Shown here: positions 19,984 to 26,919 of the stretch, piece by piece
Position numbering within the stretch: position 1 is the stretch's first letter
Layout of the letters: every line of letters begins with the position of its first letter
Notes under the pieces: model-generated
What the model saw: the letters and a program-made list of their open reading frames with translations, nothing else
Told to the model about the DNA's origin: nothing
Databases searched by the model: none
From: a virus
IMG/VR virus record: IMGVR_UViG_3300042503_002198
Span: 1-49,655 of that record
DNA length: 49,655 bases
Strand: one strand, 5' to 3'
Position numbers and translations under genes: made by a program

Positions 19984-21067
19984 TATTAATACAGACCCTT
20001 ATTGTAATAGTCCATTACTAGATCCAAGTTTATTTCCTGTTGGATCAGCAACTTTTTTAGATCCAAATTATAACATTCTTCCTTATTTGTGTCAGTTGTT
20101 ACAAGTTGCAAACGACGAAACAATCAATCCAGTTTTAGCTACACCACCAGAGTTTGATATTACACCATTTACAGATTTTAGCGGTTTAGCTACAGTTGGA
20201 GATCCTAGAGTTTCTTTGGGTTTATCAATATCTGCAACTCTTATTAATTTCTTACCAAGAATGATTACCCAGACTGAGGTTTTACAGTCAGGAGGATCAC
20301 AAATTATAGACAATTATATTTGCGATCAAGATGGTCAACCAATCAAAGAATCAAAAGTATTACCAGCTTTACTCTCATTAAATTTAAGTGCAAACCAGCC
20401 ATTTAGGTATGGAGCTTTAGAAATACCTCCAATTAATGTTTCCTTAGAAGAATTACTAAGACCAATAGTTCCAGAAGAAATTAGAAATTTCGTTACAACT
20501 TTTGTTAAAAATTCTAGAGAAAATTATTCTGATTATTTTTTAAGTTTTTTAAACACTTGGTTTTTATTTGATGAAAGATGGAAACCATCATTACATATGT
20601 ATGGAAATGGTGGATTCTTTTTTGTAAAACTTGAATTCTATGAAAGTTTAACAAATCGAGAATATCAAAAATCATTATATTTAAAATATCACGAAGACCA
20701 AGCTCAAAGTTTAGGTTGTAAATTAAATTTAAATGAAATAATCTATCACACCGAAAATATTTTTGGTAACAATTCTTTATCAAAAGCACTAGCTGCACCT
20801 ATATTTAATTACCAAGAAATTTTATCTAAGTCCTTAGATGAACAAACACAATTTTATAATACTTTAATAAACACTTTTGTAACTTTAAAATCTAATGAAT
20901 CAAGTTTACAGAACTTATTTAATCCAAATTTCTCGTTAAGGGATGCCGAAACAACTTATAAATCATTAACAAGTTTATATGGAACTCCTACCTTTACCTC
21001 CGCTGAAAGGTTATCATCGGTTCCAATCGATCAAACACAATGTTCGATTAACAGTCAAATCCTTTAA
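19976..21067 (+). CDS. unknown 363-aa protein, possibly virion-associated
   Basis: 363 aa, not recognised. Hydrophobic and asparagine/serine rich, with several cysteines (C9, C38, and a C-terminal TQCSINSQIL) and no transmembrane stretch or enzyme motif. Central FLNTWFLFDERWKPSLHMY and GNGGFFFVKLEFYESL look like a folded alpha/beta domain. It overlaps the small gene upstream by 8 nt, and its 3' end overlaps the convergent spike-like gene by 20 nt. Composition (few lysines, many N/S/T/P) is like the tail proteins, so a structural role is possible. Confidence 0.55.
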   Translation: MSNINTDPYCNSPLLDPSLFPVGSATFLDPNYNILPYLCQLLQVANDETINPVLATPPEFDITPFTDFSGLATVGDPRVSLGLSISATLINFLPRMITQTEVLQSGGSQIIDNYICDQDGQPIKESKVLPALLSLNLSANQPFRYGALEIPPINVSLEELLRPIVPEEIRNFVTTFVKNSRENYSDYFLSFLNTWFLFDERWKPSLHMYGNGGFFFVKLEFYESLTNREYQKSLYLKYHEDQAQSLGCKLNLNEIIYHTENIFGNNSLSKALAAPIFNYQEILSKSLDEQTQFYNTLINTFVTLKSNESSLQNLFNPNFSLRDAETTYKSLTSLYGTPTFTSAERLSSVPIDQTQCSINSQIL

Positions 21068-23129
21068 AGTCTGGTGGTGGATTTAAAGAACCATCAGGAT
21101 TAAAACTATAGTTATTTTGTGTGGGTCTTGCATTAACGTAGTTACCAGTAACATCAGTAGCAGTAGGAATTCCATAACCAGTGTTTCTTTGTTCTATATA
21201 GCTAGAAACTCTAGAGTTTACAAAGGCACCACCACCACCTCCACAAGAGCCTATACCACCCATAGATTTATGTCCTGGGCGTTGTCCCATGCCCTTTGCT
21301 TTCGCTGGTGTCGGAACATGACTTGGTTGTGGTGTTGCCGCTCTTGAAGCCGCTGGACTATCATAACCATCGAAAGCTGGAACGGTTGTATCGTGAACAT
21401 GACTTTGACCTGGACTGTTGTGGATATGCTGATAGTTGTATATTGGCTGTATTTGACCAGGTATAACATAACCATGCACAGGACCAGCAGCACAGTATCC
21501 GACAATCTGTAACGGAGGACCAACTGGAACAATTGGAGTTGGTCCTGTCCACCAATGAGTCATTGCAATACCAGTTGGTTGTGCAAAATTATCTAATGGT
21601 ATATTGAGCATTATGGTGGCATAAGTTTCTTCGGCTATAGTTGTTATATAATCTACACTTAAATTCAGACCCATTAAAAAACCAGCCACATCTCTAGTTG
21701 CAACTTTAAATGATTTATCGTATGCATTTAATGCGGTAGCTTTTGTCGGAGCACCATCATTCCAAGTTGCGTTTGAATGCGCCCAATGTGCTCCTCCTGC
21801 TGGTGAAGTAGATATTCTTTCTGACGGAACATGTAAATGAGTACAATGCAAAGTACCATCCATCATAATTGATCCCTTTAATCCAAAATCACCCGTAACA
21901 TTTAATAAACCAGCAACCATTGTATTATCGGATTCAATTCTTAATCCAGTATCTCCAGATCTATCTTTGGCATCAATTAAAATATTTTTTCCTTTGATTG
22001 TTGTTTTGTTGGCAGAAGTTAATGTCAATTCTCCTTCAGTTGAAGCTATGGTTGCTACAGCCGCATTAATAACACCTTTACCGCTAGTGTTCCATTCAAA
22101 TCCTGGAGATCCCGCATTAAAAGTAGCTTTATTTGCAACGTCAAAAACTAAACTTCCTGGATTAATTAAAGGATCAGAATGAAGAACTGTTTCTGCTGTT
22201 CCTGCGCTACTTACGGACATAAGTTCACCGTTTTTGGCAGGTTTTTTTAATTTAAATGCGGTAGCACCATGACCAACTGGAGCGGTTGTGGGAGAATCGT
22301 TTTTTTCTGTTCCAATTTTAAACACAACATCTCCTGCACTTTCTAAAACAAAAGATCCACCTTCACCAGCTTCTTTCTGTGCTTTTTGAATTGCTTCTTT
22401 GTTTTGCTCATAAACTTGAGCAGCTTTTTCATTTCCAGCTTGTATTTTAGTGATTGGGGATTTTATTTTTCCGTTTTTACAGCCTGGACTATCACACCCT
22501 TTTCCACCATTCATTGATAAATTTGATGATGTACTAATAAAAGGTGCTACTAATAAATTTAAATAATATTGTAAAGTGTCCAAAGGCAATGCCATTCTTG
22601 GAAACCATCTTCTAAAATAACTAAGCCAACCATCAGTTATACTGCTTACTTTATCTGATAATAATATTTGAGCACAAACTTCACAGGGTATTTCTTCGCC
22701 TTCAGTTTGTTTAATCGTATCCATTTTTGCTTGATCGATTTGTTTTGTTAATTGTTGTAACTTTTTTGCAGCTTCTTTTTGTTTTGGTGTTTGCTGACCA
22801 ATTTGAATAGAAGCATCTCCTCTTATGTATTCATGTTTTGAATTACCATATAAAAATTGTGCATCGTTTCTCGTTTGAACAAAAACATTTCCACCAGCAA
22901 GCAAACTTAAATCGGATGCAGCTTTTATGGTTATAGACCCACCAATAAATTGAATTAAACTTCTAAATTTATCTTGTAATAATATAAAAGATCTATCATC
23001 AGATATTAAAGATCCTGTATCATCAACTTTCATGTTTGTTTTCATCAAAAGCATACCTGCTTCTGACGATAAACCATCATCTCTAACGGAAACTTGATCT
23101 GTAATGCTTGGTTGTGTACTCTGTGACAT
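21048..23129 (-). CDS. baseplate spike-like protein with beta-helix-type repeats and HxH motifs
   Basis: 693 aa. The N-terminal 110 residues (IGGSITIKAASDLSLLAGGN, VQTRNDAQFLYGNS) and the middle (IASTEGELTLTSANKTTIKG, NILIDAKD) have the short alternating strands typical of gp5C/VgrG-like needles. A Cys cluster, CEVC and CDSPGC, lies at about 146-225. The C-terminal third has HIH and HVH (H568, H570, H577, H579), recalling the HxH iron-binding tips of phage membrane-piercing spikes, and a glycine run (SCGGGGG). It is the gene after the gp5-like hub and has its own late promoter (6 nt from ATG). Spike/needle is inferred, not proven. Confidence 0.6.
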   Translation of the reverse strand: MSQSTQPSITDQVSVRDDGLSSEAGMLLMKTNMKVDDTGSLISDDRSFILLQDKFRSLIQFIGGSITIKAASDLSLLAGGNVFVQTRNDAQFLYGNSKHEYIRGDASIQIGQQTPKQKEAAKKLQQLTKQIDQAKMDTIKQTEGEEIPCEVCAQILLSDKVSSITDGWLSYFRRWFPRMALPLDTLQYYLNLLVAPFISTSSNLSMNGGKGCDSPGCKNGKIKSPITKIQAGNEKAAQVYEQNKEAIQKAQKEAGEGGSFVLESAGDVVFKIGTEKNDSPTTAPVGHGATAFKLKKPAKNGELMSVSSAGTAETVLHSDPLINPGSLVFDVANKATFNAGSPGFEWNTSGKGVINAAVATIASTEGELTLTSANKTTIKGKNILIDAKDRSGDTGLRIESDNTMVAGLLNVTGDFGLKGSIMMDGTLHCTHLHVPSERISTSPAGGAHWAHSNATWNDGAPTKATALNAYDKSFKVATRDVAGFLMGLNLSVDYITTIAEETYATIMLNIPLDNFAQPTGIAMTHWWTGPTPIVPVGPPLQIVGYCAAGPVHGYVIPGQIQPIYNYQHIHNSPGQSHVHDTTVPAFDGYDSPAASRAATPQPSHVPTPAKAKGMGQRPGHKSMGGIGSCGGGGGAFVNSRVSSYIEQRNTGYGIPTATDVTGNYVNARPTQNNYSFNPDGSLNPPPDFKGFDC

Positions 23130-23154: not shown

Positions 23155-24738
23155 TTAAGCAATATTGTTTGGTTCGTATATTGTTGCAAAATAAACAGGT
23201 TTTTGAACATCTCCACCCATAAAAAATACCCAAACTTTTGAACCAACATGAGGAACCGAATTAAATCCCATAGTTCCTCCTGTTCTTGGACCAGCAAGAG
23301 AACCATATGCATCTGGGATTCTTGTTCTAATTACATTTTGTCCATTTGTAATTAATGATGCATCACCAGAAACTTCAGCCAATTTACCTAATTGGTCTAA
23401 TTGAGTTGTTTTATTATAAAAAACTTCACCGTCAATCTCTACTTTTGTTGAATCTATAGCCTCATATATTCCATTTGGATCTATACCAGGATCACCATAC
23501 TGTCCAGCATGAGCAGATCCGTTTGATACATTTGATCCTTGTAATGCTTGTTGAATCAAGCTATTATATTTTGAAATCTCTGCTTGAGTGAGACTACTTC
23601 TTGCTGCATCATATGAACCATTACTATAAACTCCAAAATAAGCTCTAGTGTTTACTGTATCTGTTAAAGTATCATTTTGTACATAACTTCTATTAAATAA
23701 AGTTTCAACAAAAGCTAACTGTGCAGCATCGTTTTGATTACCAACTTCAGATTTTATCAAACCATAAATTGTGTTTAGAGTTTCTGGGTTTGCTAAATCC
23801 TCCCCATACATTGATCTAATTTCAGATAAAATATCTGAAGCTGATCCAATTTTTTCTGTATCTCCTGTAACCCTTCCTTGTGGATCTGCTAATGCATCAA
23901 TTTCAACATCTCTTGTGTCTGCATATGCTTCAGTTGGAACAGTAGAAGGAGTTATAGATGGATCAACACCTATACCAGATCTAGCTTGAACGACCCAAGG
24001 AGTTGCACTAGAACTCGTAAAACTCCTTCCCCAATTTCTATTAGGATCTCCAACGTCCAAGTGAAAATTTGTTGTTCCTCCCATATATCCTGGTCCATAA
24101 CCAATACCACCAATACCTGCTTGTGTTAATTTATATAATGCATAAGCAATTCTTCCTTTATCTTCTTCGCTTGTTGTTGGATCAAGTTTTCTATATGGAT
24201 AAACAGATTCTGTGAAATAACCATCAGTTGCTTTTCCAAACAAATGTTGACTGTTTTCAGCTTGTCCAGCAGTAGAACCTGTTCCGCTATAACTGACCCA
24301 GTTTAGTCCTGTGCCTGATAAACCTCTAGCAATAACTCCTTGCAAGTCTGATCCCAAATCTCCTGATCTATCTCCGTTATGTTGTTGGCTTATTCTTCCT
24401 CCCCCTGCCCCTTCTTCAGGATAAATATAATTGAATCCTTGGTCGGTTGGTATTGGAGTTGGTGTTCCAGTACTAGCATTGGATGGTGCTCCAGTACTAC
24501 CACCCCAAAAAGGAACAGCAGCTTCTGCCCAAGGTAAATGTTTTTGTAGTCTGTCTTTTATTTCTGCTGAAAAACTTTTAGATTCAAAAGTTTTAAAACT
24601 TTTATTTTTTGCAGTTTCATTCCAATCTTTATATAAAGTAGGAGTTATATTAGGAACAAAAACTTGAACTCTTCCTCTTTTTTCTGGATCTGTTGTATTA
24701 ACAACAAGTCCTAAATAATTTCCAAAACATTTATTCAT
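23155..24738 (-). CDS. gp5: gp5-type baseplate hub with M15/DUF882-like peptidase and SleB-like hydrolase insertions
   Basis: 527 aa. Residues 5-30 (GNYLGLVVNTTDPEKRGRVQ) form the start of a gp5-type OB domain; its closing half is at the C-terminus (GTMGFNSVPHVGSKVWVFF, 488-506, then KPVYFATIY). Between them are two enzyme-like modules. Residues 160-240 contain SQHLFGKATD (S163, H165, G168, D172) and GIGYGP plus FHLDVGDP (H226, D228), the zinc motif of M15/DUF882 D,D- or L,D-peptidases. Residues 320-400 contain IKSEVG (E331) and AAQLAFVETLFNR, like SleB-type wall hydrolases. T4 gp5 has a lysozyme instead. It should open the peptidoglycan during tail penetration. Starts 6 nt after the upstream gene. 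Confidence 0.8.
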   Translation of the reverse strand: MNKCFGNYLGLVVNTTDPEKRGRVQVFVPNITPTLYKDWNETAKNKSFKTFESKSFSAEIKDRLQKHLPWAEAAVPFWGGSTGAPSNASTGTPTPIPTDQGFNYIYPEEGAGGGRISQQHNGDRSGDLGSDLQGVIARGLSGTGLNWVSYSGTGSTAGQAENSQHLFGKATDGYFTESVYPYRKLDPTTSEEDKGRIAYALYKLTQAGIGGIGYGPGYMGGTTNFHLDVGDPNRNWGRSFTSSSATPWVVQARSGIGVDPSITPSTVPTEAYADTRDVEIDALADPQGRVTGDTEKIGSASDILSEIRSMYGEDLANPETLNTIYGLIKSEVGNQNDAAQLAFVETLFNRSYVQNDTLTDTVNTRAYFGVYSNGSYDAARSSLTQAEISKYNSLIQQALQGSNVSNGSAHAGQYGDPGIDPNGIYEAIDSTKVEIDGEVFYNKTTQLDQLGKLAEVSGDASLITNGQNVIRTRIPDAYGSLAGPRTGGTMGFNSVPHVGSKVWVFFMGGDVQKPVYFATIYEPNNIA

Positions 24739-24744
24739 TTATTT

Positions 24745-26256
24745 TTAATCTTCATTAAAAACATTTTTTAATGAATCTCCAACTTTTCCTAAAAATTCGC
24801 TGGCTTCTTTTGAAAGATCGCTAAATCCTTGTCCAACATCTTGAAGATTGTCACCCACAGCACGAAAATTATTTTCTACGTTTAGTGAAATATTTCCTGG
24901 ATCCACAGGGGTTCCATATACATCTTCTCTTCCGCCGTTATAAAGATTTGGTCCAAGACTTGCAGCAGTTGGTGGGAAAAATGTTGCACCTTGTCCATAT
25001 CGACTCACAATTGCTGCTGATTTTGTTAAAATATTACCAAGAGGAGTTATTGCTCCATATTGTGGTCCATATTTATCAACCAACGCACCAATCAAATTGC
25101 CTCTTAAAGCAGTAGCAACCCAAGCATATCCATAATTTGAAAGTTGATCGGCCATATATCCACCAGGATCAGTTCCAATTTGATTTACAACATTTATAAT
25201 GTTTTGAACTTCTGGTGGCATATACGAAAAAACGGTTGTAAACGGGTTACTAACCAAATTAGAAGCAATATTAACAAAGTTTTGTATTGTATTTAGATAA
25301 TCTAAAAAAGGACCAGACATATTGAACAAAGATGTAAAAAAATTAATGTCATCCAAAACAACTTGAATAGTATCTAAAATTAAACATATTAAACGAATAG
25401 GAATAATTTCCTCAATTGCTTTCATTAACAATCTTTGCATTTCTGCTATGATTCCATTAATCCAAGCATATATTTTTTGTATATAAAATATAATTCCATT
25501 GTAAATGTCGTTTATAATTTTACTAAAAGATGCGATTACTCCTTGCAAACCAGCAACAATTCTACCCAAAGAACCAAAAGATCCTTTTGGCATAGACAAA
25601 TAGGCTCTAGTTCTAATGGTGTTGCAAAATTTTTCTAAATTTTCAACAGCTTCTGGGTGGATTTTGTTTAATAAATATTCTACTAAACTTGGTGTTGTTT
25701 TTTCTGGTCCAGTTATAGGATTATTAGACATATTACTAGCATTCATTTCTGTTGAACCTAGTTTTCCAATACCATCAAAACATCCTTTTTGCCATGCAGG
25801 AGTTTTTTTTAAAATTTTTGAAATTTCTGGTTGTCGAGCTAATGCTAAAAAGTCACTAATAAAAGCATCATCAATTATATATTTTTGTTGGCCTTGTATT
25901 GACGATTGTAAAACTTTATTATCAAAACCATAAACCAATAAAGCTAAAAGAAGATAATATTTATTTTTATTTAAATTTGTAAATTGATGTTTAATTTTGG
26001 CTAATTCTCCACCAAAAATATATGGATAAAGTGTAAGGTTTGTCTTTTTTTCTAGTTCTCTGATTTCTTCTCCTGTTACTGTTGTTTTAGAAACTGGTGT
26101 TGCAAATTTAGCTTCATTGTTTTGTATAGAAGTTGCTGCTGTTTGTGAAGCAGCTTGACCAGCAGATGTAGAATCTGCTATTAATTTTGATAATGAAGTA
26201 ACGTTTGGATCAAATGTATATGTTTTATTGCCAACCTTTACTGTTGTAGTAGCCAT
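24745..26256 (-). CDS. large tail/baseplate-associated protein, unrecognised
   Basis: 503 aa. N-terminal VGNKTYTFDPNVTSLSKLI, then helix-rich sequence with long hydrophobic helices (about 225-345, for example IINDIYNGIIFYIQKIYAWI and IPIRLICLILDTIQVVLDDI) and a glycine/proline/asparagine-rich C-terminal third ending FLGKVGDSLKNVFNED. No enzyme motif. It heads the operon that continues into the gp5-type hub (6 nt gap), so it is most likely a hub-associated or virion protein. Membrane insertion by the hydrophobic helices during infection is possible but speculative. Confidence 0.65.
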   Translation of the reverse strand: MATTTVKVGNKTYTFDPNVTSLSKLIADSTSAGQAASQTAATSIQNNEAKFATPVSKTTVTGEEIRELEKKTNLTLYPYIFGGELAKIKHQFTNLNKNKYYLLLALLVYGFDNKVLQSSIQGQQKYIIDDAFISDFLALARQPEISKILKKTPAWQKGCFDGIGKLGSTEMNASNMSNNPITGPEKTTPSLVEYLLNKIHPEAVENLEKFCNTIRTRAYLSMPKGSFGSLGRIVAGLQGVIASFSKIINDIYNGIIFYIQKIYAWINGIIAEMQRLLMKAIEEIIPIRLICLILDTIQVVLDDINFFTSLFNMSGPFLDYLNTIQNFVNIASNLVSNPFTTVFSYMPPEVQNIINVVNQIGTDPGGYMADQLSNYGYAWVATALRGNLIGALVDKYGPQYGAITPLGNILTKSAAIVSRYGQGATFFPPTAASLGPNLYNGGREDVYGTPVDPGNISLNVENNFRAVGDNLQDVGQGFSDLSKEASEFLGKVGDSLKNVFNED

Positions 26257-26273: not shown

Positions 26274-26293
26274 GTCGTAAGTGATAAAAAATC

Positions 26294-26321
26294 TTGTCAT
26301 TTATCAAAAATGTTGTATTAT
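26294..26321 (+). promoter_or_regulatory. sigma70-like promoter of the dNMP kinase gene
   Basis: TTGTCA (26294-26299), 16 bp, TATTAT (26316-26321), 10 nt to the ATG at 26332. Its position decides the kinase start: the upstream in-frame GTG at 26281 would lie before the promoter. Confidence 0.65.
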
Positions 26322-26331
26322 ATTTAATCTT

Positions 26332-26919
26332 ATGTTTTATCCAATAATTGGCATTTCTGGGGCTGCAAGGTGCGGAAAAGATACTTTATGCAGGGGGCTT
26401 ATTCGAGAATTTGAAAAACTTGGAATTAAAGCCAAACGCAAATCCATTGCTGGCGATACTGTTAAAAATGATTTAAAAAATCTTTTATTTGAAAAGATTC
26501 AATTCGATACATTCACAGAAATTAATGAAGAAAAAGAATCTGTACGTCCTCTTCTTGTTGAATATGGAAAAATAATGAGACAAAAAACAAATGGAAGATA
26601 TTTTATTGAAAAATTTCAATTAGAAGAAAATTATGTTAATATCATCCCAGATATTCGTTATGCAGAATATCAGAAAGATGAACTATATTGGCTAAAAAAT
26701 GAAATGAAAGGACTTTCAGTTTTTATTGAAAGAGAAGAAATTTACGATGCCAATGAAACAGAAAAAATCAATAACAAGTTTATAAAAGAAGTTGCTGATT
26801 TTAATTTAAAATGGGGAAGATTAAACGAACAATCCGAATACGAGAAAAAAATTATAGATTTTTATGCAAAAGATATTATCAATAAATTTTATTTACCACT
26901 TACCAATCGGACAATGTGA
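26332..26919 (+). CDS. gp1: deoxynucleoside monophosphate kinase, gp1-like
   Basis: 195 aa from the ATG at 26332 (T4 gp1 is 241). The protein starts MFYPIIGISGAARCGKDT, with the P-loop GAARCGKDT at residues 10-18, as in phage dNMP kinases. VNIIPDIRYAEYQ (about 103-115) matches the strand with the catalytic Asp-Arg pair (DVRF in relatives). It phosphorylates dNMPs to dNDPs. A GTG 51 nt upstream extends the frame but lies ahead of the promoter, so the shorter form is preferred. The gene stands alone on the + strand between late minus-strand operons, and its 3' end overlaps the convergent zinc protein gene by 27 nt. Confidence 0.82.
   Translation: MFYPIIGISGAARCGKDTLCRGLIREFEKLGIKAKRKSIAGDTVKNDLKNLLFEKIQFDTFTEINEEKESVRPLLVEYGKIMRQKTNGRYFIEKFQLEENYVNIIPDIRYAEYQKDELYWLKNEMKGLSVFIEREEIYDANETEKINNKFIKEVADFNLKWGRLNEQSEYEKKIIDFYAKDIINKFYLPLTNRTM

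Follow-up and report, generated by a model that had tools for sequence, protein, structure and literature searches.

A probable exchangeable dock for wall-cutting domains in the split OB domain of a gp5-type phage baseplate hub

The open reading frame at 23155..24738 of the window, which is the whole analysed stretch of 49,655 bases, an IMG/VR record with a large terminase of the T4 type, raises the question of how a baseplate hub can hold its OB domain in two pieces, and what the long segment between the pieces does. A preliminary description had proposed a gp5-type hub in which two different peptidoglycan-hydrolase-like domains lie between the halves of the OB domain. The features of the locus are as follows.

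21048..23129, minus strand: probable separate spike of 693 aa, adjoining the hub; its homologue in the related locus L001 (27% identity) lies directly after the hub genes there
23155..24738, minus strand: baseplate hub open reading frame, 527 aa with an ATG start; split OB domain with two enzyme-like domains in the loop
23176..23298, minus strand: OB C-terminal half, residues 481-521, PF04717 positions 35-75
23374..23856, minus strand: SleB-like (lytic transglycosylase-like) domain, residues 295-455
23746..23748, minus strand: predicted catalytic glutamate E331
23989..24402, minus strand: M15/LAS-like metallopeptidase-like domain, residues 113-250
24061..24246, minus strand: span of the predicted zinc ligands H226 (24061-24063), D172 (24223-24225) and H165 (24244-24246)
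24469..24738, minus strand: OB N-terminal half with the conserved LPWAE segment, residues 1-90, of which residues 8-42 are PF04717 positions 1-35
24745..26256, minus strand: 503-aa gene directly upstream of the hub, a conserved neighbour in L001 (31% identity)

Six bases separate the 503-aa gene from the hub, 25 bases separate the hub from the 693-aa gene, and homologues of both neighbours occur in L001 with their order kept. The 503-aa gene gives weak tape-measure profile matches, and a beta-helix role may be inferred for the 693-aa spike candidate from its repetitive sequence alone. Within the tail cluster, a deoxynucleoside monophosphate kinase-like gene (phrog_139, E 1e-13) lies on the opposite strand at 26281-26919 (+), and kinase-like genes of similar look are present at the equivalent place in L001 and L003.

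When the whole protein was compared with PF04717, the profile of the OB domain of VgrG and gp5 hubs, a match in two stretches was obtained with an E-value of 1.9e-12 and 47.8 bits against a cut-off of 23.8, which agrees with the proposed gp5-type identity. The N-terminal half (residues 8-42, profile positions 1-35, E 1.6e-5) and the C-terminal half (residues 481-521, positions 35-75, E 6e-8) each exceed the curated cut-off by themselves. The two halves together tile the 75-position profile, about 440 residues separate them, and only six residues follow the C-terminal half. The split drawn earlier at residues 5-30 and 488-520 is thus confirmed at the level of sequence. Judged by this profile, the hub is a gp5/VgrG-type OB protein whose domain is split by a long insert, and the halves would close into one barrel in space. 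In the AF2 model of the full-length hub, which was obtained with a ten-sequence alignment, the pLDDT was 43.6 overall and 25-40 over the OB halves. Because the prediction failed on the halves, the closure of the OB domain rests on the profile and not on the model. The whole hub had no match among PDB sequences, and tblastn with the whole window hub and the hubs of two relatives gave no match in 50,697 phage records.

The best predicted part of the full model is the M15-like domain, where the ten-residue means of the pLDDT are 41-77. Foldseek with the full model gave no significant match, and the LAS signal came only from a second structural comparison of residues 115-234, in which the best 25 matches all belong to the LAS family with Z of 4.4-5.4. 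The top matches are Hedgehog-N (5.4), the M15 endolysin LysECD7 (5.0), the Zn DD-peptidase 1lbu (4.8) and MepA (4.6). A zinc peptidase of the M15/DUF882 kind had been predicted here, with a zincin fold at residues 160-240; the ligand pattern H-x6-D...H is present as H165, D172 and H226, and LAS folds rank first over this region, at modest Z. The profile Peptidase_M15_2/DUF882 (PF05951) scores below its cut-off (E 0.038, 14.2 bits against 27), and for this reason the domain is called M15-like and is placed outside the Pfam M15 families. All three ligands are present in L004 and L082, the closest viral relatives, whose identity is 44-49% in the alignment, or about 43% by tblastn. The H and D of the motif are also kept in rhizobial phage virion proteins, and H226 is kept in five of the six aligned sequences, the third ligand being absent from L093 at the aligned position. 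The M15-like domain also lies in L093:1460-4672, L094:3044-5512 and L095:3275-5311, which are Rhizobium and Agrobacterium phage genes for tail or virion proteins. Since a Z of about 5 is weak alone, the LAS/M15 assignment is carried by the agreement of the fold, the ligand pattern and the neighbours.

The model of residues 295-455 has a pLDDT of 71.6 with a core near 90. In the structural comparison, it matches the SleB catalytic domains 4fet (Z 9.9 over 114 residues) and 4f55 (Z 9.5 over 118 residues), where the next match has a Z of only 2.2. The best matches in BFVD, which holds predicted viral structures, are mostly named SleB or cell wall hydrolase; Foldseek gave nothing at E <0.001, though SleB ranked first. 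The preliminary description had named a SleB-like hydrolase with E331 and expected a lysozyme-like fold at residues 320-400; the SleB-fold match was obtained with residues 295-455, and E331 is in the expected place. Comparison of the SleB segment ESRGEPYLGQVAVAAVILNR with the window segment EVGNQNDAAQLAFVETLFNR shows identical E, Q, A, N and R at equal spacing. The pattern, E331-x8-Q-x-A-x6-N-R, thus shares five positions with SleB, and it arose in three of 20,000 shuffles of the domain. One glutamate of SleB is reported to be essential for its lytic transglycosylase activity (PMC12331253), and on our own reading the first E of the SleB segment would be this glutamate.

E331, N349, R350 and further positions are common to seven sequences from different phage proteins, and E, N and R do not vary among them. 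None of these seven members is matched by the Pfam SleB-type model (Hydrolase_2) at E up to 10, and the domain is therefore called SleB-like. Neither enzyme-like domain of the window hub has a Pfam family over its cut-off. The SleB-like domain also occurs in a tape-measure-like protein, in a large protein beside an M23-like segment and in a baseplate-type protein, the roles being read from sequence and neighbours and not from profiles. In L085:1666-5277 and L086:2584-4643, it is joined to a peptide-type domain (M23-like, CHAP-like by sequence); these proteins combine both domain kinds outside hubs, so that the pairing may not be special to hubs. A search among genome contigs confirmed no cellular relatives of the domain. 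With the window domain as query against phages, the one match, in a Streptococcus prophage (E 0.1, beside repressor genes), was set aside.

With a profile of the OB frame, 80 viral loci were recovered, and 37 related hubs formed the comparison set. By models of the two OB halves, the hubs fall into three layouts. In the first, the loop is short and the C-terminal part long; in the second, the loop has 280-560 residues and the protein a C-terminal extension; in the third, to which the window hub belongs, the loop has about 220-410 residues and hardly anything follows the OB domain. Across the 37 hubs, sequence comparison indicates that the OB halves are conserved and the insert is exchanged. 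Between the window hub and L005, the OB ends are 63% and 55% identical and the inserts are unrelated. Between L009 and L012, each with one hub per record, the OB halves are 99% and 100% identical and the DNA flanks 83% and 93%, and the stretches of 566 and 557 bases between these flanks have no similarity. The L009 variant is also found in L010 and the L012 variant in L046, so that each occurs in two metagenomes. The insert at L009:4259-5017 has a weak GH75-like match, and that of the near-identical hub L012 carries a SleB-like domain. L001 and L002 show the same pattern of a replaced insert. Among eight hub pairs whose N-halves are identical at 80% or more, six have inserts that match over no stretch of 80 residues, and the same holds for 69 of the 91 pairs with N-halves 60-70% identical. 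A chimeric assembly could account for any single pair, and the pattern recurs across pairs.

The Pfam names found in the inserts are M23, CHAP, Amidase_5, NlpC, Tlde1, GH24-type Phage_lysozyme, Phage_lysozyme2, SLT, GH75-like and GDSL, some of them under the cut-off, and PHROGs gave endolysin and tape-measure families. One insert cluster with Cys/His residues matches PDB 4hz9 and, weakly, endolysins; the NNPGN cluster matches the endolysin 7q47. The LYS1 and LYS3 clusters have lysozyme-like E motifs and M15b has an M15-like H/D/H motif; PDB profile searches with these three clusters gave nothing, so that their class rests on the motifs. The glycan class of LYS1, LYS3 and NNPGN is accordingly an assignment at the level of motifs or endolysins.

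With these provisional labels, all 18 two-domain inserts (18/18) combine one peptide-type and one glycan-type domain, in either order and in about a dozen combinations, a count taken from a non-independent sample with class labels assigned after the sequences had been viewed. The set consists of the window hub, L004, L005, L018, L021, L022, L024, L026, L027, L038, L040, L045, L048, L049, L054, L061, L065 and L083. One-domain inserts have 221-338 residues and two-domain inserts 380-559. In three lineages (L001, L002 and L006), single domains occur in two tandem hub genes, and the paralogues of L001 and L002 apparently hold one domain of each kind. These tandem paralogues, at L001:4001-6443, L002:4001-6354 and L006:3115-5401, have OB N-halves 81-88% identical and inserts that differ, and might assemble into mixed hubs within a single tail tip. 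In L006, the second of the tandem hubs has in its OB loop, at L006:4577-5278, a GDSL/SGNH hydrolase domain (Pfam E 1e-7), which is of a deacylase type and not a peptidoglycan cutter. The pairing is not universal, because several relatives carry one enzyme-like domain and L006 pairs GDSL with an unclassified insert.

The explanation that we consider probable, with good confidence, is a contractile-tail OB hub whose loop is an exchangeable dock, which in the window carries the M15-like and SleB-like wall-cutting domains. A wider statement, which we regard as about evenly balanced, is that the OB loop is a dedicated acceptor of enzyme cassettes in this T4-like lineage under a rule of one peptide cutter and one glycan cutter, which share a single loop in tandem or are divided between two tandem hub genes and are exchanged by recombination in the conserved frame.

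Other explanations of the insert were considered against the same data. If only one domain were enzymatic, the other, most likely the M15-like one, would be a degenerate binding or spacer domain. This would be as in Hedgehog, which keeps the LAS fold and is not known to act as a peptidase. The Hedgehog domains among the best LAS matches, the M15 profile score under the cut-off and the missing third ligand of the rhizobial relative L093 fit this reading. We judge it unlikely, as the nearest two viral relatives retain H165, D172 and H226 at only about 43% identity and H226 persists in all but one of the aligned sequences.

It is also conceivable that the inserts cut capsule, exopolysaccharide or acylated surface sugars instead of peptidoglycan, so that the loop would be a dock for degradation of the receptor layer, as the GDSL hydrolase in one hub and the GH75-like domain in another would suggest. 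The recognised inserts are, however, mostly endolysin-type peptidoglycan enzymes, and both window domains resemble peptidoglycan enzymes, which makes this reading improbable. An intein-like element that interrupts the OB domain and is then excised would also appear as a large insert splitting a conserved domain at one fixed place. Against this, the inserts are unrelated hydrolase-like domains and the Pfam scans of the inserts found no intein or homing-endonuclease family, so that this reading is scarcely credible.

For the exchangeable dock with wall-cutting domains, the split OB profile, the two domain types given by fold and motif, the conserved frame and the replaced inserts are direct support, and the following process may be proposed on this basis. 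The hub would sit at the tip of the contractile tail above the spike, where its OB loop would carry an M15-like metallopeptidase for peptide bonds and a SleB-like lytic transglycosylase for glycan strands, both activities being predicted. The domains of each loop would reach outward, with a trimer placed presumably around the spike. Once the contracting sheath has pushed the tip across the envelope, the hub copies that surround the spike would break bonds of both types on the spot and so make a passage for the tube. The earlier suggestion that peptide and glycan bonds are both attacked is supported in so far as the domain types are M15-like and SleB-like, the cutting itself being predicted. 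The conserved OB halves and linkers would keep the hub assembling while the enzymes change, and recombination between related phages, probably homologous recombination in the flanks, would swap the enzymes. Such swaps would usually keep one peptide-type and one glycan-type activity, and the pairing may carry a benefit.

The idea that the two enzymes reflect a host with a tough or modified wall is not supported: uncultured phages show the two-enzyme layout with many other pairs of enzymes, and it is therefore not a special adaptation of this phage. By terminase, the nearest isolates are two T4-like phages, Atu_ph04 of Agrobacterium and phiM9 of Sinorhizobium. At an identity of only about 38%, they are a hint of a Gram-negative host, and the M15-like domain in Rhizobium and Agrobacterium phages is a possible hint of alphaproteobacterial hosts. 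Neither psbA nor an Rz-type spanin was found in 13 records, and these absences are no host evidence.

Within a domain central to the tail tip, the OB loop offers a natural place for insertions and tolerates inserts of about 220-560 residues with many unrelated folds. Swaps between close phages show which enzymes interchange, so that the need for two bond specificities in tail entry becomes testable. The inserts are also a source of unstudied wall-cutting domains; annotation by profiles only misses both window enzyme domains, as neither reaches the Pfam cut-off.

T4 gp5 is an OB hub with a GH24-type lysozyme and a C-terminal beta-helix, in which the OB domain is contiguous and is followed by one lysozyme, and the protein is cleaved before the beta-helix into gp5* and gp5C (PMC3004832). 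Both T4 gp5 and the window hub are tail-tip OB hubs carrying a wall-cutting domain. In the window, however, the OB domain is split by a 427-residue loop with two enzyme-like domains, neither of them a T4-type lysozyme, and Pfam matches no lysozyme family in the hub. The difference from the single lysozyme of T4 gp5 that had been noted earlier is thus supported. The T4 beta-helix is made in the same chain and then cleaved, whereas the window hub and the probable spike are separate genes, so that the T4 layout of contiguous OB domain, lysozyme and fused beta-helix is not found here. The gp5-like OB proteins of Atu_ph04 and phiM9 also have an enzyme-like segment in the same polypeptide as the OB hub; they have a compact OB domain followed by one CHAP-like segment, named from sequence and not from a profile, and the OB loop has 23 residues in Atu_ph04 as against 427 in the window hub.

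Two-domain virion-associated lysins of Gram-positive phages, for example the tail-knob gp13 of phi29, likewise have two bond specificities in one virion protein, but they are not OB hubs. Two catalytic domains in one virion protein have already been described for Gram-positive phages, whereas a single catalytic domain is typical of the virion lysins of phages with Gram-negative hosts, and peptidases are almost confined to phages of Gram-positive hosts (PMC6116005). If the proposed reading is true and the hosts are Gram-negative, the window hub and its relatives would contradict the view of a single catalytic domain and rare peptidases in the tail lysins of Gram-negative phages. In the passages considered from a large study of domain shuffling, receptor-binding proteins, endolysins, neck passage structures and replication proteins are highlighted; baseplate proteins appear there in general terms only, without the word "hub" (PMC10684548). 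Common to that shuffling and to the window lineage is that catalytic domains continue to be exchanged while the frame stays conserved; in the window lineage the site of exchange is the loop inside the hub OB domain. Among the titles and abstracts listed by a literature search, with most subscription journals outside its coverage, no OB domains with inserts in hubs appeared. The preliminary description had seen a new multi-enzyme tail lysin, of which the placement within an exchangeable OB loop stands as new and the presence of two enzymes in one virion protein does not. Tail-associated lysins are a known kind, and the exchangeable dock in the OB loop, as read from the related hubs, is the new part.
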